Source of the DNA: Nitrososphaerota archaeon
Lineage (GTDB): Archaea > Thermoproteota > Nitrososphaeria > Nitrososphaerales > Nitrosopumilaceae
DNA: 38,478 bases
Direction of reading: 5' to 3'
Assembly: GCA_022573895.1 (NCBI GenBank)
Contig: JACZTB010000013.1
Location: forward strand, 1 to 38,478
Positions 14,452-27,303 of this stretch are shown piece by piece. Position 1 is the stretch's first letter. Each line of letters starts with the position of its first letter. Below the pieces are notes generated by a model. It was not told the DNA's origin. It ran no database searches and was given only the letters and a program-made list of their open reading frames with translations. The translations under genes were made by a program, and so were the position numbers.

Positions 14452-15489
14452 TTACATCTTTCGATCAAGACCTTTTGCCAATCTTAATGCATCTACAAGA
14501 CCATCTGCATATCCAATACTCAAAATTGCTACCTCATCTTGACCCTCTTCTAAGAATTTCTCTGCATCTTGTATGTACAATTCTGCATTTTCTAAAATTT
14601 TTTGAAACTCTTTTTGATCTTTATAGTATGATTCAACTTCTGCAAGTGCCTCTTTAACCATTGGAACGTACTTTTCTATCATCTGAATTGAAATCTTCTT
14701 TGTTTTTTCAGAATTATCAAATGGCTCATCAATACATTCTACTAATATCTTCAAAGCATCTGATTCAGTAAAGTGTAATCTACCTGGAATGATTACTGTA
14801 TGTGGTGGTTTTCCAAAATCTTTTTTCTTCAAACTAGATATTTTACCTGAAATAATTGATTGATCCTTGAATCCAATTCTTGATGCGACAACAGCATATG
14901 TGGATGAACTTATAACATTTCTTCTTTGTCCTTTTTCTGTTTCTAATAATCCAGTTAATGCATCTTTAGGATCCAAGAAAAAATCTTTATCCTGATTGTA
15001 CTCTAATAGAAGTACTGTATGATTTCCTTCTATGAGATTTTTGTAAATTAGATAATATGGTGTTGTGAGCGATTTCATTTCACTCATTATTGTTGCAATT
15101 CTTCCAATTTTGTAAAAATGTAAACCACATTCCCCTATCATTGCAGTAAGTGATGATGAAGCATGAATGGAATATGTCTTTATTTTCTCTTTAATTGCTC
15201 TTGTTCTTAATTCAATGTGTGTAGTTGCAATGTATGGATCTCCATATGAGAGTAAAACTACTTTCTTCTTCTTTGCATTTTGTAAAATTTCATTTCCATC
15301 TTCTACTAACCATCTCTTTGCAGGCTTGAATTCTCCTTTTGTTGCATTTTTGATTTTGACAAAATCAGATTTTCCGATTGGACTAGTAAATTGTTCAAAG
15401 TAAACAATATCTGCTTTTGATAAAATATCTAGCGCCTCAAGGGGAATCGATTTGAATCCAGAAATTCCTAAACCCACAAACCAAAGCAT
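14452..15489 (-). CDS. dphB: Diphthine synthase fused to a C-terminal DUF357-like domain
   Basis: Residues 1-262 are a SAM-dependent methylase of the precorrin-methylase fold. Motifs: MLWFVGLGISGFKSIPLEAL, the SAM loop LLSYGDPYIATTH, and SIHASSSLTAMIGECGLHFYK. It trimethylates the modified histidine of elongation factor 2 on the way to diphthamide. Stand-alone archaeal DphB is about 260 residues; here an 80-residue helical domain follows (about 265-345, with EALAEVESYYKDQKEF and YIQDAEKFLEEGQ), which resembles the small archaeal DUF357 family. The start overlaps the lysK stop by one base, so it is the last gene of the lysine operon. The DUF357 assignment is from memory of the family. Confidence 0.9.
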   Translation of the reverse strand: MLWFVGLGISGFKSIPLEALDILSKADIVYFEQFTSPIGKSDFVKIKNATKGEFKPAKRWLVEDGNEILQNAKKKKVVLLSYGDPYIATTHIELRTRAIKEKIKTYSIHASSSLTAMIGECGLHFYKIGRIATIMSEMKSLTTPYYLIYKNLIEGNHTVLLLEYNQDKDFFLDPKDALTGLLETEKGQRRNVISSSTYAVVASRIGFKDQSIISGKISSLKKKDFGKPPHTVIIPGRLHFTESDALKILVECIDEPFDNSEKTKKISIQMIEKYVPMVKEALAEVESYYKDQKEFQKILENAELYIQDAEKFLEEGQDEVAILSIGYADGLVDALRLAKGLDRKM

Positions 15490-16616
15490 TACTGCATCTT
15501 TTTATCATGAAGTCTTTTTAAATGCTGGAGGGTTTTCTTAAGAATTTCTATTCCTCTTAGATACTCATCAATTGAAACCTTCTCGTCAATTGTATGAGCC
15601 TCATGTGGGTCTCCTGGACCATATGTAACAACAGGAATCTTCCACTGATTTCCAAGAACATTCATGTCACCTGTACCTGTTTTTCTGATTAGAGTTGGTC
15701 TTGAATGTTCTATATCCATAATTCCAAGGGTAAATGCCCTAACTAATGGTGAATTATGAGATGCTTCAAAAGGCTCTGTTTCATCAAGAATTGAATAAAA
15801 TGCCTCTACCCCTCTTTTCTCCGCAATTTCTTTTACTAATGTTGCAATTTTTTGTTCAGTAGATTTACAGTTCATGTCTACGGGAATTCTAATATCAAAA
15901 GTAGTTTCACATTCTTTTGGAGTTATGTTGTGACTAATTCCTCCTTTAATTTCAGTTATAGTTACAGTCAGTAACATTCCTTTAGTTTTACCATCTTGAC
16001 CTACTTCTAACCCTTCTTTGAGTTCTTTTGCAAAAATCATTGATTCTTGAATAGCATTTTTTGAAAGCCATGGTGCACTTGCATGAGAGCTATCCTCAAC
16101 ACTGATTTTAAGATTAATTGCCAACCTTCCTTTGTATGCAATTGTGACTTGTTTAACTCCACTTGGCTCTCCAAAAATCGCATAATCAATATTCATCTCT
16201 TTTTTTACAAGATTTTTTATTCCTGTAGCACTTCCTTCTTCATCTACAGCTGCTACAAAAATTATAGTTCCGTTGTTATTTTGAATTGATGCTGCAGCAA
16301 ATAACATTGCAATTAATGGTGCTTTTGCATCTGATGCACCACGTCCATAAAGTAAATCTCCCTCTTTTCTAACTTTGACTTTTCCTGGAACAACATCCAT
16401 GTGTCCACATAACATAATTTTTGGTGAACCCGTTCCTTTCTTTGCAATTAAATTCCCGACTTCATCAATTTGAATATCTTCAAATCCTAAATCATCACAT
16501 TTATCAGCTAAAAAATCTGTCATTGGTTTTTCACTAAGAGATGGTGTATACAATCTGAGTGCTTTCTCAAGTGTTTTCACTGCAAAATCTGGTGTTATTG
16601 TAAAATGAGTATTCAA
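15489..16616 (-). CDS. lysK: [LysW]-lysine/ornithine hydrolase (M20 metallopeptidase)
   Basis: The 375-residue enzyme releases the finished amino acid from LysW by cutting the bond to the carrier's C-terminal residue. All M20 metal ligands are visible: His in MLCGHMDVVPG, Asp in GRGASDAKAPL, the Glu pair in VDEEGSATG, Glu in GEPSGV and the last His in GPGDPHEAHTIDE. It lies three bases after lysX. Only one hydrolase is present for two LysW carriers, so it probably serves both lysine and arginine (ornithine) synthesis, as known for Sulfolobus. ArgE or DapE would be alternative names, but the LysW context decides. Confidence 0.9.
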   Translation of the reverse strand: MNTHFTITPDFAVKTLEKALRLYTPSLSEKPMTDFLADKCDDLGFEDIQIDEVGNLIAKKGTGSPKIMLCGHMDVVPGKVKVRKEGDLLYGRGASDAKAPLIAMLFAAASIQNNNGTIIFVAAVDEEGSATGIKNLVKKEMNIDYAIFGEPSGVKQVTIAYKGRLAINLKISVEDSSHASAPWLSKNAIQESMIFAKELKEGLEVGQDGKTKGMLLTVTITEIKGGISHNITPKECETTFDIRIPVDMNCKSTEQKIATLVKEIAEKRGVEAFYSILDETEPFEASHNSPLVRAFTLGIMDIEHSRPTLIRKTGTGDMNVLGNQWKIPVVTYGPGDPHEAHTIDEKVSIDEYLRGIEILKKTLQHLKRLHDKKMQ

Positions 16617-16619
16617 TTC

Positions 16620-17468
16620 TTACTTGCCTATCTTTAGTGCATAATCTAGCATTAAGGAAGGAATATCTACTTCACATACTCTAACTGTATTTTTGTATTC
16701 TGTTGTATTGTTAACCTCATGGACAACTAATCCCTTCTCATCACTTTCCATCAAATCTACACCTACGATATCTCCCTGAACTGCATTTTTTGCCTTAATA
16801 CACATTTCTTCCATTTCTGGTGTGACTTTACATGGATCTGCTACTCCTCCAAGTGCCATATTTGTTTTCCAATTTCCATTTCCAGAAGTCCTGTAAATTG
16901 CTGCAACTATTTTATCTCCTACCATTATAGCTCGAATGTCTCTTGGTGGTCTTTTTACAAATTCTTCTAAGTAATGAATTTGGTAAATTGGGTACATATT
17001 TTCTCTACTCTCAATAATTCCTTCAGCAGACTCTTTATCGTTTAATTTTGAAATTAATCTGCCCCAACTACCAATTGTTGGTTTGATTACTCTGGGAAAT
17101 CCCTGTGTTTCTAATGCTTGCAAAGCTGCTTCTTTTGAAAAAGCAACTGTTGCATCAGGTGTTGGCACTCCAAATTTCTTTAGTAACATATGTGTGAATA
17201 ATTTATTTCCTGCAAAAATACCTGTATTGAGACAATTGATTACCTTGACCCCAAGTCCTTCTAGAGCTGCAGTTGAATGTAAATTTCTATAGTAACTCAC
17301 ACATCTTTGAATAACTACGCCATAATCTTCAGGCTTTTTTTCTAAATTCAATGCTAGTTTTTTACAATTAACCATCTGAATGTTGATGTTATTTTTTTTA
17401 CCGGTTTCTAGTAGAGCTTTTTCTTCCCAACGGATGGTATCGTAAAGAATAGTAACGTCAGGACTCAC
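16620..17468 (-). CDS. lysX: LysW ligase 1, probably alpha-aminoadipate-LysW ligase
   Basis: An ATP-grasp ligase of about 282 residues that attaches an amino acid through its amino group to the LysW C-terminus. Motifs: VTILYDTIRWEEKALL at the start, the ATP-grasp KPTIGSWGR, and the end VVHEVNNTTEYKN. I chose the GTG at 17468, which gives a four-base GTGA overlap with the lysW1 stop; the ATG at 17477 would add three residues and a 13-base overlap. Homocitrate synthase and lysW1 just upstream point to aminoadipate and lysine. The paralogue at 22400-23257 ends NNTVEFKG instead; this difference may mark substrate choice. Confidence 0.88.
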   Translation of the reverse strand: MSPDVTILYDTIRWEEKALLETGKKNNINIQMVNCKKLALNLEKKPEDYGVVIQRCVSYYRNLHSTAALEGLGVKVINCLNTGIFAGNKLFTHMLLKKFGVPTPDATVAFSKEAALQALETQGFPRVIKPTIGSWGRLISKLNDKESAEGIIESRENMYPIYQIHYLEEFVKRPPRDIRAIMVGDKIVAAIYRTSGNGNWKTNMALGGVADPCKVTPEMEEMCIKAKNAVQGDIVGVDLMESDEKGLVVHEVNNTTEYKNTVRVCEVDIPSLMLDYALKIGK

Positions 17469-17632
17469 TGTCCCCAATCCTCACCAACCGTTTGGGCAGG
17501 CTTTAGATTGAAACCATCTGAACCTTTTGCTAATTCAAAACTTGAGCCACATTCCGGACATGTTACAATCTCTCCTTCAAGTGCATCACTTGGTAAGGAA
17601 ATATCTGCATCACATTCTTCACATTTTGACAT
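17465..17632 (-). CDS. lysW: LysW-type amino-group carrier protein 1, with C-terminal Gln
   Basis: This 55-residue carrier starts at MSKCEECDADISLP (ATG at 17632), 22 bases after the lysS stop. The zinc knuckles are CEEC and CPEC, followed by an acidic tail. Typical LysW ends EDWGE, and the gamma-carboxyl of that last Glu carries the amino acid. Here the last codons read GAG GAT TGG GGA CAG, so the protein ends EDWGQ. The paralogue LysW2 has the normal Glu. An in-frame ATG at 17665 would add eleven unrelated residues. A purine-rich AGAGAAGAGAAGAGAAA lies just upstream and may act in ribosome binding. Confidence 0.93.
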   Translation of the reverse strand: MSKCEECDADISLPSDALEGEIVTCPECGSSFELAKGSDGFNLKPAQTVGEDWGQ

Positions 17633-17654: not shown

Positions 17655-18821
17655 CTATTTATCATTAATTATCTTTTTTTCAAGTCTGTCTTCAAGTGGA
17701 ATATCGATAAGATCACCCATCCTAAGATTCTTCAATCCAACTGCAACTGCTTTTGCACCTTCATTGTCTTTTTCAAGGCCTAATAGTGACATTAGATACG
17801 CAGCTCCTGTTTTTCCTGCCAATTCTCCAAAGACAATTCTTCTTCTGTTTCCAACTGCTCTTGGTGGTATGGGCTCATAGGCTGCAGGATTTCTGAGAAT
17901 TGCTGCTAGGTGTGTTCCTGCTTTGTGTTTGTATGCAGACGATCCTACAATTGGTTTTGAGTCATATGGTTTGATTGATGTGTAGTCTTCAATTAATCTA
18001 GACAAATCCAGTAACATATCTAATCTGAAATCGTTTTGTGATTTGTATAGATAAGTAAGTGCTACTGCAACTTCTGCAAGAGGTGGAATTCCTGTTCTTT
18101 CCCCAATACCATCAATAGTAGTATGAATCTGATCAACTCCTGCATCACATGCTGAAAACGCATTTGCTACTGCAAATCCAATATCATTGTGAACGTGTGC
18201 ATCTAACGGTACATCTACTACATCACTAACTTTCTTAACAAAATTATACATTCCAATTGGACGTAAAATTCCAACTGTATCTGGAAGACTGATTCTATCA
18301 ACTCCTGCTTCTTCAATTGCCTTGCAAACTTTGAGTAAAAATTCAGGCTCTGTTCTACTTCCATCTTCTACTGTAAATCTAATTTTGAGACCGTGGGATT
18401 TTGCATACTCTACAGTTTCTACAGCTCTGTCAAGAGCTTCTTCTCTTGAAATACGTAGTTTATCTTTTAGATGAATGTCTGAAATTCCTAAATACGCAGC
18501 ACACCATTTTGCATCACAAGCTAGTGAAATATCAATATCTTCTTTGAGAGCACGTCCATGAGAAACAATGTCCGCCTTTAATCCTTGTTTAATGATTATC
18601 TTAGTTGCTTCTTTGTGATCATTTGATATAACTGGTGAAATTTCTATTTGATCTACTCCAAAATAATCTAGCATCCATGCAATTTGAATTCTTTGTTTGT
18701 TCGTAAACGAAACTCCTGGATGTTGTTCTCCTTCTCTTAAAGTACTGTCTAGGACTTTGATCTTCTTTGGATTTTTGTCAGATGTGTTGTAGATGTTTGC
18801 ATAGTGATTCGGATCTTTCAT
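17655..18821 (-). CDS. lysS: Homocitrate synthase (2-isopropylmalate synthase family)
   Basis: A 388-residue TIM-barrel acyltransferase. The signature LDSTLREGEQHPGVSF holds the catalytic Arg and first metal Asp, and the metal-binding HVHNDIGFAVANAF and GIGERTGIPPLAEV follow. HVHND and the GERTGI form resemble homocitrate synthases rather than LeuA (HDHND, GERAGN). It condenses acetyl-CoA with 2-oxoglutarate, the first step of lysine synthesis through alpha-aminoadipate. At 388 residues it has no C-terminal LeuA regulatory domain of full size. First gene of the operon with lysW1-lysX-lysK-dphB. Citramalate synthase is a less likely alternative. Confidence 0.85.
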   Translation of the reverse strand: MKDPNHYANIYNTSDKNPKKIKVLDSTLREGEQHPGVSFTNKQRIQIAWMLDYFGVDQIEISPVISNDHKEATKIIIKQGLKADIVSHGRALKEDIDISLACDAKWCAAYLGISDIHLKDKLRISREEALDRAVETVEYAKSHGLKIRFTVEDGSRTEPEFLLKVCKAIEEAGVDRISLPDTVGILRPIGMYNFVKKVSDVVDVPLDAHVHNDIGFAVANAFSACDAGVDQIHTTIDGIGERTGIPPLAEVAVALTYLYKSQNDFRLDMLLDLSRLIEDYTSIKPYDSKPIVGSSAYKHKAGTHLAAILRNPAAYEPIPPRAVGNRRRIVFGELAGKTGAAYLMSLLGLEKDNEGAKAVAVGLKNLRMGDLIDIPLEDRLEKKIINDK

Positions 18822-18938: not shown

Positions 18939-19358
18939 TTAGATTACTTTTTTCAAAATAATTACAGTATTTGTATCAACTACCCCTGTAATCTTTCTTA
19001 ATGCATCAATACTATTATTAATTTCAGCAATCGTTGCTGCACTGATAATTACTGTAATGTCGTATTGACCTGTAATTTCATAAACTGTTTTTACTCCTTC
19101 TAATTTGACAAGTTTCAGAGAAACTTTAGATGTATCTGTTGCAGAATCTACTGAAACTAAAACAATTGCACTAGTGGCATTTTCTTCACCAAGTTCTAAA
19201 GTAAATTTTTTGATAGCACCACTACCTAATAGATTTTTTACACGTCTTCTTACTGCTGATTCAGAAAGCTTCAGTTTTTTGCCAATATCTACAAATGATT
19301 CTCTAGAGTTTTCTTCTAGATATTCAATAATCTTTTTGTCTACCTTATCCTTGTACAT
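18939..19358 (-). CDS. Lrp/AsnC-family regulator (LysM-like)
   Basis: The 139-residue protein has an N-terminal helix-turn-helix (about 5-55, with FVDIGKKLKLSESAVRRRVKNL) and a C-terminal RAM effector domain (about 65-139, with VYEITGQYDITVII). Lrp proteins form dimers or octamers and respond to amino acids. It is the last gene of the argG-to-lysJ operon, overlapping lysJ by 14 bases, and lies directly upstream of lysS. Sulfolobus LysM, also Lrp-like, controls the LysW-dependent lysine genes, so a similar job with lysine or arginine as the signal is a fair inference. Confidence 0.85.
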   Translation of the reverse strand: MYKDKVDKKIIEYLEENSRESFVDIGKKLKLSESAVRRRVKNLLGSGAIKKFTLELGEENATSAIVLVSVDSATDTSKVSLKLVKLEGVKTVYEITGQYDITVIISAATIAEINNSIDALRKITGVVDTNTVIILKKVI

Positions 19359-20532
19359 TTCGTTTTTGCTCCTCTTTTGTTAATATGGAATCAAGAGCAT
19401 GTAAAACTTTTGTTACATCGTCCTCAGATATTACTAATGGTGGAAGAATTCTCAGAATATTTCTTCCAGAATATAACATTAGAACCCCTTCTTTTATCAA
19501 CCCCATTAGAATATCTTTGATTTCAAATTTCATTTCTATTCCTATCATAAGTCCTTTTCCACGAATCTCTCTAATCATAGTGTGTTTTTCTTTTAGTTTC
19601 TCTAATCCTTCTCTGAAAATTTTTCCCATTTTCTCAGAATTTTCAATCAATCCATCATCAGTTAATGCTTTGAGAGATGCAATTCCTGCTGCACAAGATA
19701 GTGGGTTTCCACCAAATGTTGAAGAATGTTCTCCCTTACTCATTGAAGCTAGAATGTCAGGTCTTACAAGAGTTGCACCCATTGGCACTCCTCCTGCTAT
19801 TCCTTTTGCCAGACACAAAATATCTGGTGCAGTATTCCAATGATCACAAGCCCATAATCGTCCAGTTCTACCTAAACCAGCTTGTATTTCGTCAAAAATT
19901 AACAGAATTCCTTTTTCATCACAAAGTTTTCTCACTTGTTGTAAAAATCCTTCAGGCGCAACAATAATTCCACTCTCACCTTGAATTGGTTCTAAAATTA
20001 CAAAAGCTGTATCATCATTAATTACCGAACGAAGCGATTCAATATCTCCAAAGGATGCAAAAGAAACTTTCTCAACAAGTGGTTCAAATGGTTTTCTATA
20101 TTTTGGACTAAACGTTAATGATAATGCACCAAAAGATTTTCCGTGGTAGGACCCTTTCATTGCAATCATTTCTTTTTTGCCAGTAAACTTTCTTGCAAAC
20201 TTTATTGCGGCTTCTATTGCTTCTGCTCCACTATTGTTTAGGTGTACTTGTGTGAGTCCTTTTGGAGCTAATCCGATAAGTGTTTTCAAAAATTCTTCTC
20301 TTGTTTTGTTGTAGAATGAACTATGAACTGTAATAATTTTATCAAGTTGTTCTTTTATTGCTTTGTTAACTCTTTGATTTTGATGACCTACTAACGCTAC
20401 ACCATATCCGCCCATACAGTCAATGTACTCTTTTCCATCAGTATCCCATACATGAGCTCCTACTCCTTTTTCAATTGTAACTGGAAATCTTTGATAGAGA
20501 TTTCCCATAAATTGATCTTCACTAATGCTCAA
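19345..20532 (-). CDS. lysJ: [LysW]-aminoadipate/glutamate semialdehyde aminotransferase
   Basis: A 395-residue class III PLP aminotransferase. It shows the cofactor-binding sequences HLNNSGAEAIEAAIK and FDEIQAGLGRTGRLWA and the Schiff-base lysine in ILCLAKGIAGGVPMGA. It converts the LysW-bound semialdehyde to LysW-lysine or LysW-ornithine, using glutamate as donor. Being the only copy beside two carrier/ligase pairs, it probably works in both pathways. The start overlaps lysZ by 11 bases and the end overlaps the Lrp gene by 14. ArgD and GabT are related alternatives, ruled against by the operon. Confidence 0.9.
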   Translation of the reverse strand: MSISEDQFMGNLYQRFPVTIEKGVGAHVWDTDGKEYIDCMGGYGVALVGHQNQRVNKAIKEQLDKIITVHSSFYNKTREEFLKTLIGLAPKGLTQVHLNNSGAEAIEAAIKFARKFTGKKEMIAMKGSYHGKSFGALSLTFSPKYRKPFEPLVEKVSFASFGDIESLRSVINDDTAFVILEPIQGESGIIVAPEGFLQQVRKLCDEKGILLIFDEIQAGLGRTGRLWACDHWNTAPDILCLAKGIAGGVPMGATLVRPDILASMSKGEHSSTFGGNPLSCAAGIASLKALTDDGLIENSEKMGKIFREGLEKLKEKHTMIREIRGKGLMIGIEMKFEIKDILMGLIKEGVLMLYSGRNILRILPPLVISEDDVTKVLHALDSILTKEEQKRNVQG

Positions 20533-21322
20533 TCACCGTACAATTATCATGTGCAATTGCAGAAGATATTGGATTTTCTTTCTGACCATTTGCAATCAAT
20601 ACTTCTTTGACACCCATGTCCAATGCTTCTGTAGCTGCTAAAATCTTCTTCTCCATTCCTGGTCCTATTTTTGGTCTGATTTCTTTTGCTTCTGCCAATG
20701 TTAGTTTAGGAACAAGTTTGTCATCTATTAAAAGTCCATCAACATCTGTAATGAATAATACTTTATCACTACCTACTTTTCCAGCTATATATGCTGCAGC
20801 TCTATCTCCATCAACATTTAGAAATTCTGACTCTTCACTAATTGCTATGGGTGAAATAACAGGTGTAAGTCCTTGTTCTAAGAGTAATTTGATGAATCCA
20901 GAGTTTATTTCTTTAATTTTTCCAGTATATCCACCATCAATTGCTTGTTTTCTACCTTTTTCATTAACTATCAGAAGCTTCTTTTTTCTGTCAGCTACTA
21001 TTACTCTGGCATCAACTCCTGAAAGACCAATTGCGTTAATACCATTTTTCTGAAGCATCTGAACAATCGTCTTGTTTATTCTACCTGACATTACCATTGT
21101 AAAAATCTCGATAGTCTCTTTGTCGGTATATCTACTTTTGATTCCACTAGGTGATGTTACAAATTTTGGTTCTTTTCCAAGCTGTTTACAAACTTTTGTA
21201 ACTTCTTTTCCACCACCATGAACTATGATTACCCCCTCTGATTCTACTATTTTTTTAATGTCTGTAATTGTAGATGGATGTAAATTATCTACCACACTTC
21301 CACCAATTTTGATTGTGATCAT
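20522..21322 (-). CDS. lysZ: [LysW]-aminoadipate/glutamate kinase
   Basis: A 266-residue amino acid kinase of the ArgB family. The N-terminal MITIKIGGSVVDNL and the nucleotide loop VIVHGGGKEVTKV bind ATP, and FLNVDGDRAAAYIAGKV is the ArgB-type substrate region. It phosphorylates the side-chain carboxyl of the LysW-bound aminoadipate or glutamate. A two-base gap separates it from lysY upstream and it overlaps lysJ downstream by 11 bases. ArgB is the close alternative; carrier genes in the operon favour LysZ. There is a single copy in the window. Confidence 0.9.
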   Translation of the reverse strand: MITIKIGGSVVDNLHPSTITDIKKIVESEGVIIVHGGGKEVTKVCKQLGKEPKFVTSPSGIKSRYTDKETIEIFTMVMSGRINKTIVQMLQKNGINAIGLSGVDARVIVADRKKKLLIVNEKGRKQAIDGGYTGKIKEINSGFIKLLLEQGLTPVISPIAISEESEFLNVDGDRAAAYIAGKVGSDKVLFITDVDGLLIDDKLVPKLTLAEAKEIRPKIGPGMEKKILAATEALDMGVKEVLIANGQKENPISSAIAHDNCTVIEH

Positions 21323-21324
21323 TT

Positions 21325-22371
21325 CTAAACAGGAGTTAGTGGAGTATATCTCAATCCATCCATTTCATCAAAACCACACATTATATTCATATTTTGAATG
21401 GCAGAACCTGCTGCACCTTTCATCAAGTTATCTGATGCAGATAACGCAATCAATCTATTATTATCTTCGTCTATTTCAAATCCTATATCACAAAAGTTTG
21501 AACCAACCAAGAACTTTGGATCTGGGAATTTATACAAGCCCTTTTTGTCTCTAATAAGTCTGATAAATTTTTCATTACCATAAGCTTGACGATACAATTT
21601 CCATAATTCTTTCTCATCTATGTCTTTTTGCATAAATGTGTGGTTTGTACATAAAATTCCACGAACTACATCAACTGCATGTGGACTCATTGAAACATGA
21701 ATCTTCTTTCCTGCAATTTCACTAAGTTCTTGTTCAATTTCACCAGTATGTCTATGCCTTGCTGGTTTGTATGGTCTAATTACACCTGCTCTCATTGCAT
21801 GTGCAGTTCCAGAACCCGAACCTGCCCCAGAAGACCCAATCTTTGCATCTACAATGATATGTTCTGTCTCAATAATGTTATTTCGAATTAATGGTGCAAG
21901 TGCTAATATTGATGTTACTGCCATGCAGCCTGGACAAGAAACAAGTTGTGATTTTTTGATTTCTTCTCTGTGTAATTCTGGTATTCCAAAAACTGATTTT
22001 GATAAATAATCTGGATGTGGATGTTCCCATCCATACCATTTGTCATAATCTTTTTGATCATGTAATCTATAATCCGCACTCAAATCTATTATTTTGATAC
22101 CTCTATCATAGAGAGACTTTACAATTTCAGTTGCAGTACCATGAGGAACAGCTGTGAAAATCAGATCACATTTGTCAGTTAATTTATCATAATCTAATTC
22201 TGAGAAAGTAAGATCTGTAAATCCTTTCAAACTTGGTTGTACTCTATGAATATATTTACCAGCATGCTGTCTTGATGTAACCATAGTTAACTCAACGTCT
22301 GGATGGTTAACAAGAAGACGAAGTGTCTCTCCACCTACATAACCTGATGCTCCTACAATACCTACTTTCAT
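21325..22371 (-). CDS. lysY: [LysW]-aminoadipyl/glutamyl phosphate reductase
   Basis: The 348-residue NADPH-dependent enzyme reduces the LysW-bound acyl phosphate to the semialdehyde. The Rossmann start is MKVGIVGASGYVGGETLRLL and the catalytic cysteine is in SCPGCMAV (Cys149 by comparison with NPGC of ArgC). A conserved HRHTGEIEQEL follows near residue 215. Length matches ArgC/LysY. It lies 28 bases after the ArgX-like gene, where a GGAGG-like stretch (GAGGAGGTT, minus strand of about 22376-22384) forms a Shine-Dalgarno site. Confidence 0.9.
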   Translation of the reverse strand: MKVGIVGASGYVGGETLRLLVNHPDVELTMVTSRQHAGKYIHRVQPSLKGFTDLTFSELDYDKLTDKCDLIFTAVPHGTATEIVKSLYDRGIKIIDLSADYRLHDQKDYDKWYGWEHPHPDYLSKSVFGIPELHREEIKKSQLVSCPGCMAVTSILALAPLIRNNIIETEHIIVDAKIGSSGAGSGSGTAHAMRAGVIRPYKPARHRHTGEIEQELSEIAGKKIHVSMSPHAVDVVRGILCTNHTFMQKDIDEKELWKLYRQAYGNEKFIRLIRDKKGLYKFPDPKFLVGSNFCDIGFEIDEDNNRLIALSASDNLMKGAAGSAIQNMNIMCGFDEMDGLRYTPLTPV

Positions 22372-22399: not shown

Positions 22400-23257
22400 T
22401 TATTTCCTAACGTAGTTTAGAGCAAATTCTATCATTTCTCTTGGAATGTTTCGTTCTGCAACTTTTGCTAATCCCTTGAATTCCACTGTATTATTAACCT
22501 CGTGCACAACTAGACCCCTTTCATTGTCTTCCATCATATCTATTCCTAAAATTCCTCCACCCATGGCCTTTGATGCTTTCACTGCCAAATCCTCCATCTC
22601 TTTTGTGATCTCACAAAGTTCTGGATCTGCTCCAAGTACTATGTTTGTCTTAAAACCACCTGATGATTTTCTGTACATGGCTGCAATAGGTTCATCACCA
22701 ATCGTGATTACTCTGATATCCCTTGGTGGTCTTTTGATTAATTCTTGCAAGTAGTAAATTCTATCGTGGGGGCTATCTGTAATATTTCTTATTTCAAGAA
22801 CTGCATCCATTGTATCTTTATCTTTAATTGGCATTACTCCTCTACCCCAACTTCCTATCACTGGCTTGATCACTAGAGGATATCCAACTTTTTCTAAATT
22901 CTCTGCCGCACTTTCACTAGAAAATGAAAAGTATGTTTTTGGTGTTGGAATATTATTTTTTTTCAAAAGTAAAGTCATGAACATCTTATTTCCACAAACA
23001 TTTGCAACATCAAATTTGTTAAGAACTGGAACGTCCATAAATTCCAGACTTGCAGTAAAGTGAAGTCCTCTAAAATAACTGACACATCTTTCTAAAACAA
23101 TATCTCCAAAGTCATAGTCTTCTCTTTTACTATCGGTGTTAATTTGAGTAATCTTTGCATCTAACATTACTGCATCATGCCCAAGATCTAATGCCTCTTT
23201 CTGAAGCATCTTTTCTTCTGTTCTTAGGCGATCAAATACGATACATACTTTTGACAT
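22400..23257 (-). CDS. argX: LysW ligase 2, probably glutamate-LysW ligase
   Basis: A 285-residue ATP-grasp ligase paralogous to the gene at 16620-17468. It starts CIVFDRLRTEEKMLQKEA, has the ATP-binding KPVIGSWGRGVMP, and ends VVHEVNNTVEFKG. It sits directly after lysW2 with a one-base TAATG overlap and two genes after argG, so its likely substrate is glutamate, for ornithine and arginine. Sequence alone does not settle ligase specificity, and I do not see a clear ArgX-only signature; the assignment rests on gene context. Confidence 0.82.
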   Translation of the reverse strand: MSKVCIVFDRLRTEEKMLQKEALDLGHDAVMLDAKITQINTDSKREDYDFGDIVLERCVSYFRGLHFTASLEFMDVPVLNKFDVANVCGNKMFMTLLLKKNNIPTPKTYFSFSSESAAENLEKVGYPLVIKPVIGSWGRGVMPIKDKDTMDAVLEIRNITDSPHDRIYYLQELIKRPPRDIRVITIGDEPIAAMYRKSSGGFKTNIVLGADPELCEITKEMEDLAVKASKAMGGGILGIDMMEDNERGLVVHEVNNTVEFKGLAKVAERNIPREMIEFALNYVRK

Positions 23258-23424
23258 TACTCTCCCCAGTCTTCGCCTACAGTTTCTGCTTGCTTAAGCT
23301 CAACATTTGATCCGTCTTTTTTTGCGATTTCAAAGTCAGCGCCACAATCAGGACAGGAGATAATTTCTCCAACTGAGGCATCGTCTGGGATGTTTAATGT
23401 TGCATCACATTCTGGGCAGTTCAT
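23257..23424 (-). CDS. lysW: LysW-type amino-group carrier protein 2
   Basis: A 55-residue carrier, the same length as LysW1. It begins MNCPECDATLNIPDDA, with zinc knuckles CPEC and CPDC and an acidic tail ending GEDWGE, the normal LysW terminus whose last Glu carries the amino acid. Its ATG overlaps the argG stop (ATGA) and its TAA overlaps the argX ATG (TAATG), so translation of the three genes is tightly coupled. The argG and argX neighbours suggest it carries glutamate for arginine synthesis. It is identical to LysW1 in only part of its length. Confidence 0.93.
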   Translation of the reverse strand: MNCPECDATLNIPDDASVGEIISCPDCGADFEIAKKDGSNVELKQAETVGEDWGE

Positions 23425-24620
23425 GTTTTTGTTGACCTTTTCTTTTGTAATTTATTAGCTTCTGTTGTCTGCATTCCCCATAATTCTACAAATCCTTTGG
23501 CTAATCTCTGGTCAAATGTGGACTCTGAACCATAAGTGGCAATATCATGATTGTATAATGAATTCTTAGATTTTCTTCCAACTACCCTTAGACTTCCTTT
23601 ATACAGTTTGATTTTTACACTTCCTGATACTGGCTTTTGTGATACCTCGATAAATCCATCCAAATCCGCTTTGAGAGGGTCCTGCCATAGTCCTGAATAT
23701 ACCAAATATGCCCATTCATCATCAATTAGGGACTTGAACTTGTTTTCGTGTTTAGTATGAACCATCTTTTCTAAATCTGCATGTGCTTCAATCAAACAAG
23801 TAGCTGCTGGAGTTTCATACACTTCACGGGATTTGATTCCGATTACTCTGTCTTCAATATGATCAACTATTCCGACACCTGCTGCACCTGCTTTTTTGTT
23901 TATGTATTCAATCAGTTTTTGAGAATCCATTACTTTGTCATCGACTTCAACTGGAATTCCTTTCTCAAATTTAATTTCTAAATACGTTGGTTTGTCCGGC
24001 AAGTTTTTTGTTTTAACCCAAATGAATACATCATCCGGTGGTTCATTGTATGGATCTTCCAATATTCCTCCTTCAATTGCACGTCCCCACAGGTTTTGAT
24101 CAATACTGAATTTTTTTGCTACAGAATCAATTTCAATTCCATGTTTCTTTGCAAACTTTAATTCAGTATCCCTATCCAAGTTTTTGTCTCGAATTGGAGC
24201 TATAATTGGAAGGTCAGATCCAGAGCGTAATGAAATGTCAAATCGTACTTGATCATTTCCTTTACCTGAACATCCATGTGCTAGTGATGTTGCTTTTTCT
24301 TTTTTTGCAATCTCTAAAACTTTTTCTGCAATTAGCGGTCTTGCAAGTGCTGTTGCAAGACAATATTTTTTCTGATAAAGTGCATTGGCTTTAATTGATG
24401 GAAAAATGTAATCTTTGACAAACTCTTTTCTTGCATCAATATTGTAGTGTTTTTTTACACCCAGTTTTTTTGCTTTGGCTGCAATTTTTTTACTATCATC
24501 ACCTTGTCCAACATCTACTGTTACTGTGATGACATCCATGTCATATTCTTCTTGTAGATATTTTACAACCACTGAAGTGTCAAGTCCTCCAGAAAATGCA
24601 AGAATTCCTTTTTGAGTCAT
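23421..24620 (-). CDS. argG: Argininosuccinate synthase
   Basis: The 399-residue enzyme joins citrulline and aspartate with ATP, the penultimate step to arginine. The PP-loop is at the start (GILAFSGGLDTSVVVKYL). GCSGKGNDQVRFD and YEQ/YNEPPDDVFIW-like segments of the synthase family follow. Length is standard. It is the first gene of the operon argG-lysW2-argX-lysY-lysZ-lysJ-lrp and overlaps lysW2 by four bases. argH, which finishes the pathway, is not in the window. Upstream it faces the ABC importer genes across 130 bases. Confidence 0.93.
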   Translation of the reverse strand: MTQKGILAFSGGLDTSVVVKYLQEEYDMDVITVTVDVGQGDDSKKIAAKAKKLGVKKHYNIDARKEFVKDYIFPSIKANALYQKKYCLATALARPLIAEKVLEIAKKEKATSLAHGCSGKGNDQVRFDISLRSGSDLPIIAPIRDKNLDRDTELKFAKKHGIEIDSVAKKFSIDQNLWGRAIEGGILEDPYNEPPDDVFIWVKTKNLPDKPTYLEIKFEKGIPVEVDDKVMDSQKLIEYINKKAGAAGVGIVDHIEDRVIGIKSREVYETPAATCLIEAHADLEKMVHTKHENKFKSLIDDEWAYLVYSGLWQDPLKADLDGFIEVSQKPVSGSVKIKLYKGSLRVVGRKSKNSLYNHDIATYGSESTFDQRLAKGFVELWGMQTTEANKLQKKRSTKT

Positions 24621-24750: not shown

Positions 24751-25782
24751 ATGAAAACTCGATCAGCACTTTCTGCAGGTATTGTTGTAATTGTATTGTT
24801 GTCTGTATTGGGAATTCTCAGTTCTAGTGATACTACGCATGAAAATAAGATCCGTATTGCCTATTTTCCAAACATTGGTCATGCTATTCCAATAGTAGGA
24901 ATAGAAAAAGGATTTTTTGAAGAAAGCATTGGAGATCAAACTAAAATTGAAACCAGAGTTTTTGATAGCGGACCACAGGCCATAGAATCTCTATTTGCCA
25001 ATTCTATTGATCTTGCATATGTTGGACCCGGTCCTGCAATTAACGGATTTTTGAATTCAGATAATCACAACGTAAAGATTCTTGCAGGTGCTGCAAGTGG
25101 CGGTGCTAGCTTTATTGTTCATCCAAACTCTGAAATTAATTCAGTTTCTGACTTTGCAGGAAAAAAAATTGCCGCTCCTCAAATTGGTAACACACAAGAT
25201 GTATCACTACGTCATTATCTCTCTGAAAATGGATTGAGGCCAGCTGAAAAAGGAGGATCAGTAATTATTTATAATATTTCAAATCCTGATATCTATACCC
25301 TATTTGTAAAAGGAGATATTGATGGTGCATGGGTTCCAGAACCTTGGGCCACAATTTTAGAAACCGAACTTGCCGGAAAACGATTATTCTATGAAGAAGA
25401 ACTATGGCCAAACAAAGAATTTGCATCTGTTCTTTTAATTGCAAATGTAGATTATGTAGAAAAAAATCCAACAATCATTGCTAATTTTTTACAATCTCAT
25501 AACGAAACAGTAGCTTGGATTAATACAAATCCTATTGAAACTAGAATTGTCTTTAATGATTTTCTAAATTCACATTTTGGTCAATCTTTGTCTGATGATG
25601 TTGTGGATATCGCATTATCTAATCTTGTAATTACTGCAGATCCTTTGAGTGATTCTGTTTATTCCTTTGCTGAAAAAGCTGACGCTCTAGGATATTTGGG
25701 AAGAAACAGTTACAACTTATCTGGAATTTTTTATTATTTTGATTCAAATTCTAGTTTGGAGGTTGAGAACATAGATGACTAA
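24751..25782 (+). CDS. ABC transporter substrate-binding protein (NitT/TauT type)
   Basis: The 343-residue protein has an N-terminal hydrophobic segment (about 8-24) that acts as a signal or membrane anchor; there is no lipoprotein cysteine. The rest is an SsuA/TauA/NMT1-like binding protein: IRIAYFPNIGHAIPIVGIEKGFFEE at the start of the mature part is written in this family as the first ligand-contact strand, and LAYVGPGPAINGF and DGAWVPEPWAT follow. Relatives bind sulfonates, nitrate, taurine or thiamine precursors, so the ligand is open. The promoter predicts a leaderless message. It is first of three coupled genes. Confidence 0.85.
   Translation: MKTRSALSAGIVVIVLLSVLGILSSSDTTHENKIRIAYFPNIGHAIPIVGIEKGFFEESIGDQTKIETRVFDSGPQAIESLFANSIDLAYVGPGPAINGFLNSDNHNVKILAGAASGGASFIVHPNSEINSVSDFAGKKIAAPQIGNTQDVSLRHYLSENGLRPAEKGGSVIIYNISNPDIYTLFVKGDIDGAWVPEPWATILETELAGKRLFYEEELWPNKEFASVLLIANVDYVEKNPTIIANFLQSHNETVAWINTNPIETRIVFNDFLNSHFGQSLSDDVVDIALSNLVITADPLSDSVYSFAEKADALGYLGRNSYNLSGIFYYFDSNSSLEVENIDD
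25758..25763 (+). promoter_or_regulatory. Shine-Dalgarno sequence of the ABC ATPase gene
   Basis: GGAGGT lies 11 bases before the ATG at 25775, inside the end of the preceding gene. It decides the ATPase start. Confidence 0.6.
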
Positions 25783-26539
25783 ACTAGAAGCAAAAAATAT
25801 TGTAAAGTACTTTTATCATGACTCTCACAAACTTGAGGCACTAGGAGGAATTAACCTAAAAGTTGAGGCTGGTGATTTTGTATGTTTGATAGGTCCATCA
25901 GGGTGTGGTAAATCGACATTTTTACGAATAATTGCAGGCTTGGAGAAACCTGATGAGGGACAAATTATGTTTGATGGTCATCCCATAACTGAGACTGGAC
26001 CTGAAAGGATTATGATATTTCAAGAGGGTGCTTTATTTCCGTGGCTTAAGGTTCAAGATAATGTTGAATTTGGATTAAAGATGGCTGGTATTCCAAAAAA
26101 CGAGCGAGCAAAGATATCCAATAGATTTCTGGATATGATGCAACTAACAAAATTTGCAGATTCTTACACTTATCAACTTTCAACTGGAATGAAACAGCGT
26201 GTAGCTATTGCTAGAGCACTTGTGATGGATCCTGATGTATTGTTGATGGATGAACCCTTTGCAGCACTTGATGCACAAACTCGCGATTTGTTATTAGTTG
26301 AGATGCAGCTAATTTGGGAAAAGACAAAGAAAACAATTTTATTTGTAACTCATAATGTTACAGAAGCTACAGTTCTTGGAAACAAAATAGTTATTTTCAG
26401 CAACCGTCCATCAATTATCAAAAAACAATTTGAAAATAATTCTCCACGGCCTAGAGTTACTGAAGATGAATCACTACTCAAACTCCAACAAGATATCTTA
26501 GCAGAACTTAGACCTGAAGTAAAGAAAAGTAGAGGATGA
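25775..26539 (+). CDS. ABC transporter ATPase (SsuB/TauB type)
   Basis: The 254-residue protein powers import. Motifs in order: Walker A GPSGCGKST (about 38), Q-loop MIFQEGALFPWL, signature LSTGMKQRVAIARAL, Walker B VLLMDEPFAALD and switch histidine FVTHN. The signature reads LSTGM where most relatives have LSGGM, a small but tolerated change. It overlaps the binding-protein gene by eight bases and the permease gene by four (ATGA), so the three subunits are made together. Confidence 0.92.
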   Translation: MTKLEAKNIVKYFYHDSHKLEALGGINLKVEAGDFVCLIGPSGCGKSTFLRIIAGLEKPDEGQIMFDGHPITETGPERIMIFQEGALFPWLKVQDNVEFGLKMAGIPKNERAKISNRFLDMMQLTKFADSYTYQLSTGMKQRVAIARALVMDPDVLLMDEPFAALDAQTRDLLLVEMQLIWEKTKKTILFVTHNVTEATVLGNKIVIFSNRPSIIKKQFENNSPRPRVTEDESLLKLQQDILAELRPEVKKSRG

Positions 26540-27303
26540 TTATGATGGGAAAAAATTTCATACCTCATAGAATTGCATTTTATATTGGAATTATTGTAAT
26601 TTGGCAAATTATTTCAATGGTGGGAGTTTGGCCTGATAATATTTTTCCATCGCCATATGAAGTAGCTGAAGACTTGGCATATGGTGCAGCAGATGGTAGT
26701 TTGTTTTATGGAATTGCAACTAGCATGTGGAGATTATCTATTGGACTGACAATTGCAATTGCTGGTGGAGTCGTCTTAGGAATTTTCATGGCAAGAGTTG
26801 AAGTAATCAATCAAACTGTTGGTTCTCTAGTTTTAGGGTTGCAATCAATTCCTTCAGTTGCATGGGTTCCACTCGCAATTCTTTGGTTTGGACTAACAGA
26901 TGCTGGTATTATCTTTGTTACTGCAATTGGGGCAATTTTTGCAGTTACAATCAATACCTACACTGGAGTCAAAAACATTGATCCTCACTATATTGAAGCT
27001 GCAAGAAATATGGGTGCAAAAGGTGGTCAACTAATTACTGCTGTGTTGATACCTGCAGCATTTCCATACATGATTTCTGGCTTCAAACAGGGTTGGGCAT
27101 TTGCATGGAGAGGCGTAATTGGTGCTGAACTGTTATTTTCTTTCCTAGGACTAGGATTTCTGCTTAATGCAGGACGATCTCTTAATGATGTCTCCCAAGT
27201 CATTTCAATAATGATTGTAATAATGGGTATTGGTCTTGTAATTGATAGTGTTGTCTTCAAAAGACTCGAAGACAAAGTAATGTCCAGATGGGGATTGAGA
27301 TAA
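26536..27303 (+). CDS. ABC transporter permease (SsuC/TauC type)
   Basis: The 255-residue membrane protein has about six transmembrane helices. The cytoplasmic coupling loop is recognisable as EAARNMGAKGGQLITAVLIPAAFPYMISGFKQ, of the EAA family, which docks on the ATPase. It forms a homodimeric channel with the preceding ATPase. Three methionines crowd the N-terminus (MIMMGKN); the first, overlapping the ATPase stop, is chosen. The end is 14 bases from the convergent MFS gene. Confidence 0.9.
   Translation: MIMMGKNFIPHRIAFYIGIIVIWQIISMVGVWPDNIFPSPYEVAEDLAYGAADGSLFYGIATSMWRLSIGLTIAIAGGVVLGIFMARVEVINQTVGSLVLGLQSIPSVAWVPLAILWFGLTDAGIIFVTAIGAIFAVTINTYTGVKNIDPHYIEAARNMGAKGGQLITAVLIPAAFPYMISGFKQGWAFAWRGVIGAELLFSFLGLGFLLNAGRSLNDVSQVISIMIVIMGIGLVIDSVVFKRLEDKVMSRWGLR

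Follow-up and report, generated by a model that had tools for sequence, protein, structure and literature searches.

Many archaea make lysine and arginine by an established route in which amino acids are loaded onto the C-terminal glutamate of the carrier protein LysW. The window analyzed here, a stretch of 38,478 nucleotides that forms positions 1 to 38,478 of contig JACZTB010000013.1 (GenBank assembly GCA_022573895.1) from a Nitrososphaerota archaeon of the family Nitrosopumilaceae, contains two such carriers, and the gene for one of them, lysW1, specifies glutamine where the carrier glutamate is expected. The chemistry of LysX, phosphorylation and loading by the Glu gamma-carboxyl route, is impossible for an amide. 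The question is therefore how a carrier that is encoded with a terminal Gln (hereafter Q carrier or Q-LysW) might be loaded.

The lysW1 gene and its operon

Translation of lysW1 gives MSKCEECDADISLPSDALEGEIVTCPECGSSFELAKGSDGFNLKPAQTVGEDWGQ followed by a stop codon (TGA, 17467-17465), and confirmed what a sequence-only reading of this locus had reported, namely that LysW1 ends in EDWGQ (last codon CAG) and LysW2 in EDWGE. The stop codon overlaps the GTG start of lysX1 (GTGA). Both carriers scored above the NCBIfam cut-off of 75 bits for the LysW/ArgW profile NF041070 (Table 1), and LysW1 contains a zinc ribbon with two CxxC pairs (PF21344, 46.4 against a cut-off of 27). It differs from characterised LysW/ArgW carriers in the encoded EDWGE tail, whose C-terminal Glu, the loading residue, is replaced by Gln. 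The gene adjoins that of a LysX/ArgX ligase and lies in an operon with lysZ, lysY, lysJ and lysK. Considering that a Q carrier is the sole carrier in other genomes (see below), LysW1 is probably a working amino-group carrier that becomes covalently loaded.

Table 1. Features of the lysine/arginine biosynthesis cluster in the window
Feature	Position	Strand	Assignment	Basis
lysK	15489..16616	-	M20-family [LysW]-lysine/ornithine hydrolase (isopeptidase); candidate LysW-Gln deamidase	TIGR01902 272.9 bits, cut-off 163.1; PF01546
lysX1	16620..17468	-	RimK-type ATP-grasp ligase LysX, probably alpha-aminoadipate specific	TIGR02144 325.8 bits, cut-off 275.6; PF08443, PF22626
lysW1	17465..17632	-	Amino-group carrier LysW1, 55 aa, terminus EDWGQ	Translation; NF041070 87.6 bits; PF21344 Zn_ribbon_LysW
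lysW1 last sense codon	17468..17470	-	CAG (Gln), Glu carrier codon expected there	Sequence
lysS	17655..18821	-	Homocitrate-synthase-like, assigned by context	TIGR02146 374.7 bits, below cut-off 413.55
lysM	18939..19358	-	Lrp-type regulator	NF040947 184.1 bits, cut-off 180
lysJ	19345..20532	-	Aminotransferase, common to both branches	TIGR00707 441.1 bits
lysZ	20522..21322	-	[LysW]-aminoadipate/[LysW]-glutamate kinase, common to both branches	NF010662 310.8 bits, cut-off 194
lysY	21325..22371	-	[LysW]-phosphate reductase, common to both branches	TIGR01850 421.2 bits
lysX2/argX	22400..23257	-	Second LysX/ArgX ligase	TIGR02144 290.6 bits
lysW2/argW	23257..23424	-	Second carrier, terminus EDWGE	NF041070 92.9 bits
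argG	23421..24620	-	Argininosuccinate synthase, cluster head	ORF; named from sequence and neighbourhood

The cluster is complete, in the order argG-lysW2-lysX2-lysY-lysZ-lysJ-lysM-lysS-lysW1-lysX1-lysK that relatives share, and the window holds a single set of lysZ, lysY, lysJ and lysK for two carriers and two ligases. The solved structures nearest to LysX1 are 3vpd, 5k2m and 3vpb. The lysS product scored below the cut-offs for homocitrate, citramalate and isopropylmalate synthases, and its substrate is set by context alone. Past argG, a plus-strand gene (24751-25782) was read by eye as the substrate-binding protein of a nitrate/sulfonate-type transporter, and is followed by two more ORFs (25775-27303).

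Conservation and distribution of the terminal glutamine

All 30 close LysW1 orthologues retrieved by protein search end in Gln, and 219 of 250 Nitrosopumilaceae-type genomes were found to encode a Q-ending EDWG tail; in this survey, a LysW1 ending in Glu was found in five genomes only (G114, G147, G148, G169 and G161). The sequence-only reading would have taken the codon for an error or a strain-specific trait if all orthologues ended in Glu, and the orthologues were instead found to retain Gln. When LysW sequences were fetched without selecting on the tail (n=90), 64 ended in EDWGQ, 26 in EDWGE and none in any other way, and across all 165 genomes with LysW in hand the sole further ending was EDYGE. 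The Gly codon preceding the terminal Gln uses all four letters at its third base, and Gln itself is encoded by either CAG or CAA, which indicates that the terminal residue is under selection at the amino-acid level. Although CAG differs from the Glu codon GAG by a single base, it is extremely improbable that the terminal Gln is a sequencing error or marks a non-functional, decaying carrier, both of which the sequence-only reading had considered, since more than 200 genomes keep Gln, synonymous exchange of CAG and CAA included, and Q-LysW is the only carrier, serving two ligases, in several complete genomes.

The possibility that the overlap with lysX1 forces Gln was examined and ruled out. GAGTGA would retain the GTG start, and lysW1 ends precisely in GAGTGA in an E clade (G114, G147, G148 and G169); genes with Gln that end in CAA TAA, without such a GTGA overlap, also exist.

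The LysW survey covered the phylum of the window (Thermus-Deinococcus, haloarchaea and Thermococci lie outside it). In a pattern search of 400 genomes of the class, Gln was found in families f1, f2 (g23) and f3, and Glu in the other families listed. Q-LysW genera among the matches listed were Nitrosopumilus, Nitrosopelagicus, Nitrosotalea, Nitrosotenuis, Nitrosarchaeum, Cenarchaeum, Nitrosocaldus, Nitrososphaera, Nitrosocosmicus and Nitrosopolaris. Beyond Nitrosopumilaceae, Q-LysW occurs in Nitrosocaldus, Nitrososphaeraceae and four further families of the phylum, with Ignicoccus hospitalis among their members; true Q-LysW genes in f32, f37, f55 and f58 adjoin lysX, mostly with lysZ, lysY, lysJ and lysK as well. 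Pattern matches in Chloroflexi, Anaerolineae, Streptacidiphilus and genome G456 proved on reading not to be LysW. Even within Ignicoccus the last residue of LysW differs, being Gln in I. hospitalis (G546) and Glu in its sibling G511. In both of these genomes the lysW-lysX pair (L343, L391) is separate from the remaining lysine/arginine genes.

The carrier that bears Gln also varies. Nitrosopumilaceae have Gln on LysW1 and Glu on LysW2 very strictly, and groups g30 and g36 show the reverse arrangement. Gln is present on both carriers in g28, g25, g46, g48 and two Cenarchaeum-like g21 genomes, and Glu on both in G161, G147, f2/g31 and f5. In Cenarchaeum-like genomes G244 and G245 (L153, L155, L162 and L163), lysW2 is on a different contig from argG-lysX2 and ends in Gln. 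Mapping of the E/Q label onto a tree of 148 LysX partners required at least 14 switches, and strongly supported branches leave no alternative for eight of these. The switches affect both LysW1 and LysW2, and occur in distant families. Judged from these sequences, the Gln terminus is a conserved swap of many independent origins. For the most abundant ammonia oxidisers, and for other archaea that acquired it independently, a Gln-encoded carrier would mean that loading either follows another chemistry or is preceded by an as yet undescribed deamidation. Our literature search, which left subscription journals mostly outside, found no paper on a Gln-ending LysW.

Ligases and downstream enzymes of Q carriers

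Six Nitrosocosmicus-type genomes, three of which are single-contig, contain LysX1, LysX2 and the full operon without lysW2, and their lone LysW ends in Gln. With lysW2 lost, this single Q-LysW must serve both ligases. In the Nitrosocosmicus-type loci (L121-L126; G288, G293, G296, G299, G302 and G350), lysX2 is still located beside argG. One LysW with terminal Gln and two full-length LysX-type ligases were also found in f32/g90, f37/g96 and I. hospitalis, which is an obligate autotroph and for which lysine synthesis via the aminoadipate route has been predicted (PMC2614490). The mirror case is G005 (L159 and L416), a genome of the family Nitrosopumilaceae in which lysW1 is gone, lysX1 is kept beside lysS, and LysX1 and LysX2 operate with LysW2-E alone. 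The same enzymes thus work with either an E or a Q carrier, and one kind can replace the other.

The ligases showed no sign of adaptation to the carrier that they use. The LysX motif GSWGR, reported to recognise the EDWGE tail (PMC10433800), is retained in 75 of 77 LysX proteins with a Q carrier and 68 of 71 with an E carrier. No LysX residue tracks Glu versus Gln: the best of 921 column tests on independent pairs reached 3.3 versus 0.6 of 8 pairs, and none of the 33 near-invariant LysX positions is altered in nine close E/Q contrasts. LysX1 of the Nitrosopumilus clade that has reverted to Glu is 96% identical to that of its Q sister, and has no private or diagnostic residue relative to it. 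The proposal, made on first reading of the locus, that LysX1 uses another group found no support, as no ligase residue follows the E/Q change and GSWGR is kept. Similarly, no LysK residue consistently tracked Q carriers in a comparison that included 12 E-only genomes. Gene order was equal for E and Q genomes; the comparison revealed neither an extra operon gene in Q genomes nor a dedicated deamidase gene linked to the operon.

Possible routes to a loaded LysW1

LysX forms a bond between the aminoadipate amino group and the gamma-carboxyl of the Glu at the C-terminus of LysW, and replacement of this Glu by Ala (E54A) in the carrier of the haloarchaeon Natrinema gari J7-2 abolished arginine synthesis (PMC10433800). 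LysW1 resembles the characterised LysW/ArgW proteins of Thermus, Sulfolobus, Thermococcus and haloarchaea in its zinc-ribbon family, its EDWG tail, its LysX/Z/Y/J/K partners and the GSWGR motif of its ligase; however, those carriers end in Glu and are loaded on its gamma-carboxyl, whereas the lysW1 gene of the window encodes Gln. The best explanation, which we consider somewhat better than evenly probable, is that LysW-Gln is a pro-carrier. LysW1 would be translated with a C-terminal Gln, and a cellular activity would hydrolyse the side-chain amide to give Glu. LysX could then ligate alpha-aminoadipate (or glutamate) to the new gamma-carboxylate as normal, and LysZ, LysY, LysJ and LysK would meet an identical gamma-linked substrate whether Glu or Gln had been encoded.

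Several observations are consistent with such a deamidation. No residue other than E or Q was seen at the end of the tail, which implies that the side chain matters, and a single LysZ/Y/J/K set for both carriers favours a single linkage chemistry. A Gln-to-Glu conversion that precedes loading agrees with the E/Q-only tail, the swaps without a change in the ligase and the one downstream set. On the other hand, many LysW lineages keep Glu, while a generic deamidating activity would predict Gln wherever LysW occurs, and the strict LysW1-Q/LysW2-E arrangement of Nitrosopumilaceae is not explained by plain interchangeability. The question is directly testable by a single C-terminal peptide (the tryptic one of the window LysW1 is GSDGFNLKPAQTVGEDWGQ), as cultivated strains and proteomes exist for Nitrosopumilus, Nitrososphaera, Nitrosocosmicus and Ignicoccus.

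The likeliest deamidase may be LysK, which hydrolyses the gamma-glutamyl amide LysW-CO-NH-Lys/Orn. LysW-CO-NH2 would be a truncated form of this substrate, and each carrier molecule would need no more than a single turnover. LysK is the leading candidate because it is a LysW isopeptidase and PafA/Dop homologues are absent (no PF03136 match over the cut-off in 17 genomes). All 21 genomes checked, of which 19 encode a Q carrier, contain LysK above the TIGR01902 cut-off; its occurrence in the two E-only genomes means that its presence is not specific to Gln. With no LysK residue tracking Gln, the assignment comes from chemistry and presence, and M20 enzymes usually require a carboxylate on the leaving group, which counts against it. 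That LysK itself performs the deamidation appears possible but rather doubtful. Another candidate, the glutamine deamidase CheD, was rejected: PF03975 was found in 4 of 24 genomes, and none of the Nitrosopumilus, Nitrosocosmicus and Ignicoccus genomes tried contained it.

The proposed maturation has a parallel in the protein modifier Pup with its enzymes PafA and Dop. All Pup proteins end in G[EQ] (PMC2588565), and Dop, the depupylase (an isopeptidase), also deamidates the Gln of PupQ (PMC8599861). Both Pup and LysW are small proteins with E- and Q-encoded forms among relatives (EDWG[EQ] or EDYGE in LysW), and in both attachment takes place at the gamma-carboxylate of the last Glu. The deconjugating isopeptidase of the Pup system also deamidates; its counterpart for LysW is LysK, for which deamidation would be the analogous second activity. 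The two systems differ in that fold and enzymes are unrelated, and Pup tags proteins whereas LysW serves amino-acid biosynthesis. Of the ideas put forward in the sequence-only reading, Pup-like deamidation probably fits best, but no Dop/PafA homologue was present. We tentatively suggest a Pup-like maturation in archaeal amino-acid biosynthesis, in which the Gln pro-form of LysW may be made loadable by LysK or another deamidase. If true, the Dop logic would have been invented a second time in an unrelated system, and might serve to gate lysine or arginine synthesis.

An unlikely alternative to deamidation is that LysX leaves the side chain of LysW-Gln unused and loads the alpha-carboxylate at the C-terminus instead. 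RimK is thought to use an alpha linkage on ribosomal protein S6, and LysX is likewise a RimK-type ATP-grasp ligase that acts on a protein C-terminus; alpha loading would also account for a LysX1 that is indifferent to Glu versus Gln. However, unlike RimK, which extends the C-terminal end of S6, LysX loads a side chain, and the sequences gave no hint of a switch. GSWGR is unaltered, as are the near-invariant positions of LysX. In addition, an unused side chain should permit residues other than Glu and Gln, none of which appears, and in genomes with both E and Q carriers one LysZ/Y/J/K set would need to handle alpha- and gamma-linked substrates.

Deamidation might also act as a switch, in which Gln keeps newly made LysW1 inactive until a regulated deamidase acts, and which would separate lysine from arginine synthesis or couple it to nitrogen status. 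The strict LysW1-Q and LysW2-E arrangement across Nitrosopumilaceae suggests that Gln is selected and not merely tolerated. However, the carrier with Gln is not constant: Nitrosopumilaceae have it on LysW1, and g30 and g36 on LysW2; g28, g25 and two g21 genomes have it on both carriers, and G147, G161 and f2/g31 on neither. Nitrosocosmicus runs both pathways with one Q carrier. A regulatory role of the Gln pro-form is possible, although a switch of this kind seems quite unlikely.

Finally, LysX could activate the Gln amide directly, with the aminoadipate amino group taking the place of ammonia (or with formation of an amidine), so that no deamidation would be needed. Activation of an amide is chemically possible, as the side-chain carbonyl of the C-terminal Gln of Pup has been proposed to attack ATP in Dop (PMC8599861). 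We consider this route improbable for LysW1. Direct amide exchange has, to our knowledge, no precedent in ATP-grasp enzymes. Alpha loading and direct amide exchange both explain the E/Q-only rule and the common downstream enzymes less well than deamidation does; against direct exchange in particular, LysX is an ATP-grasp carboxylate-amine ligase whose near-invariant residues are equal for Q and E partners.
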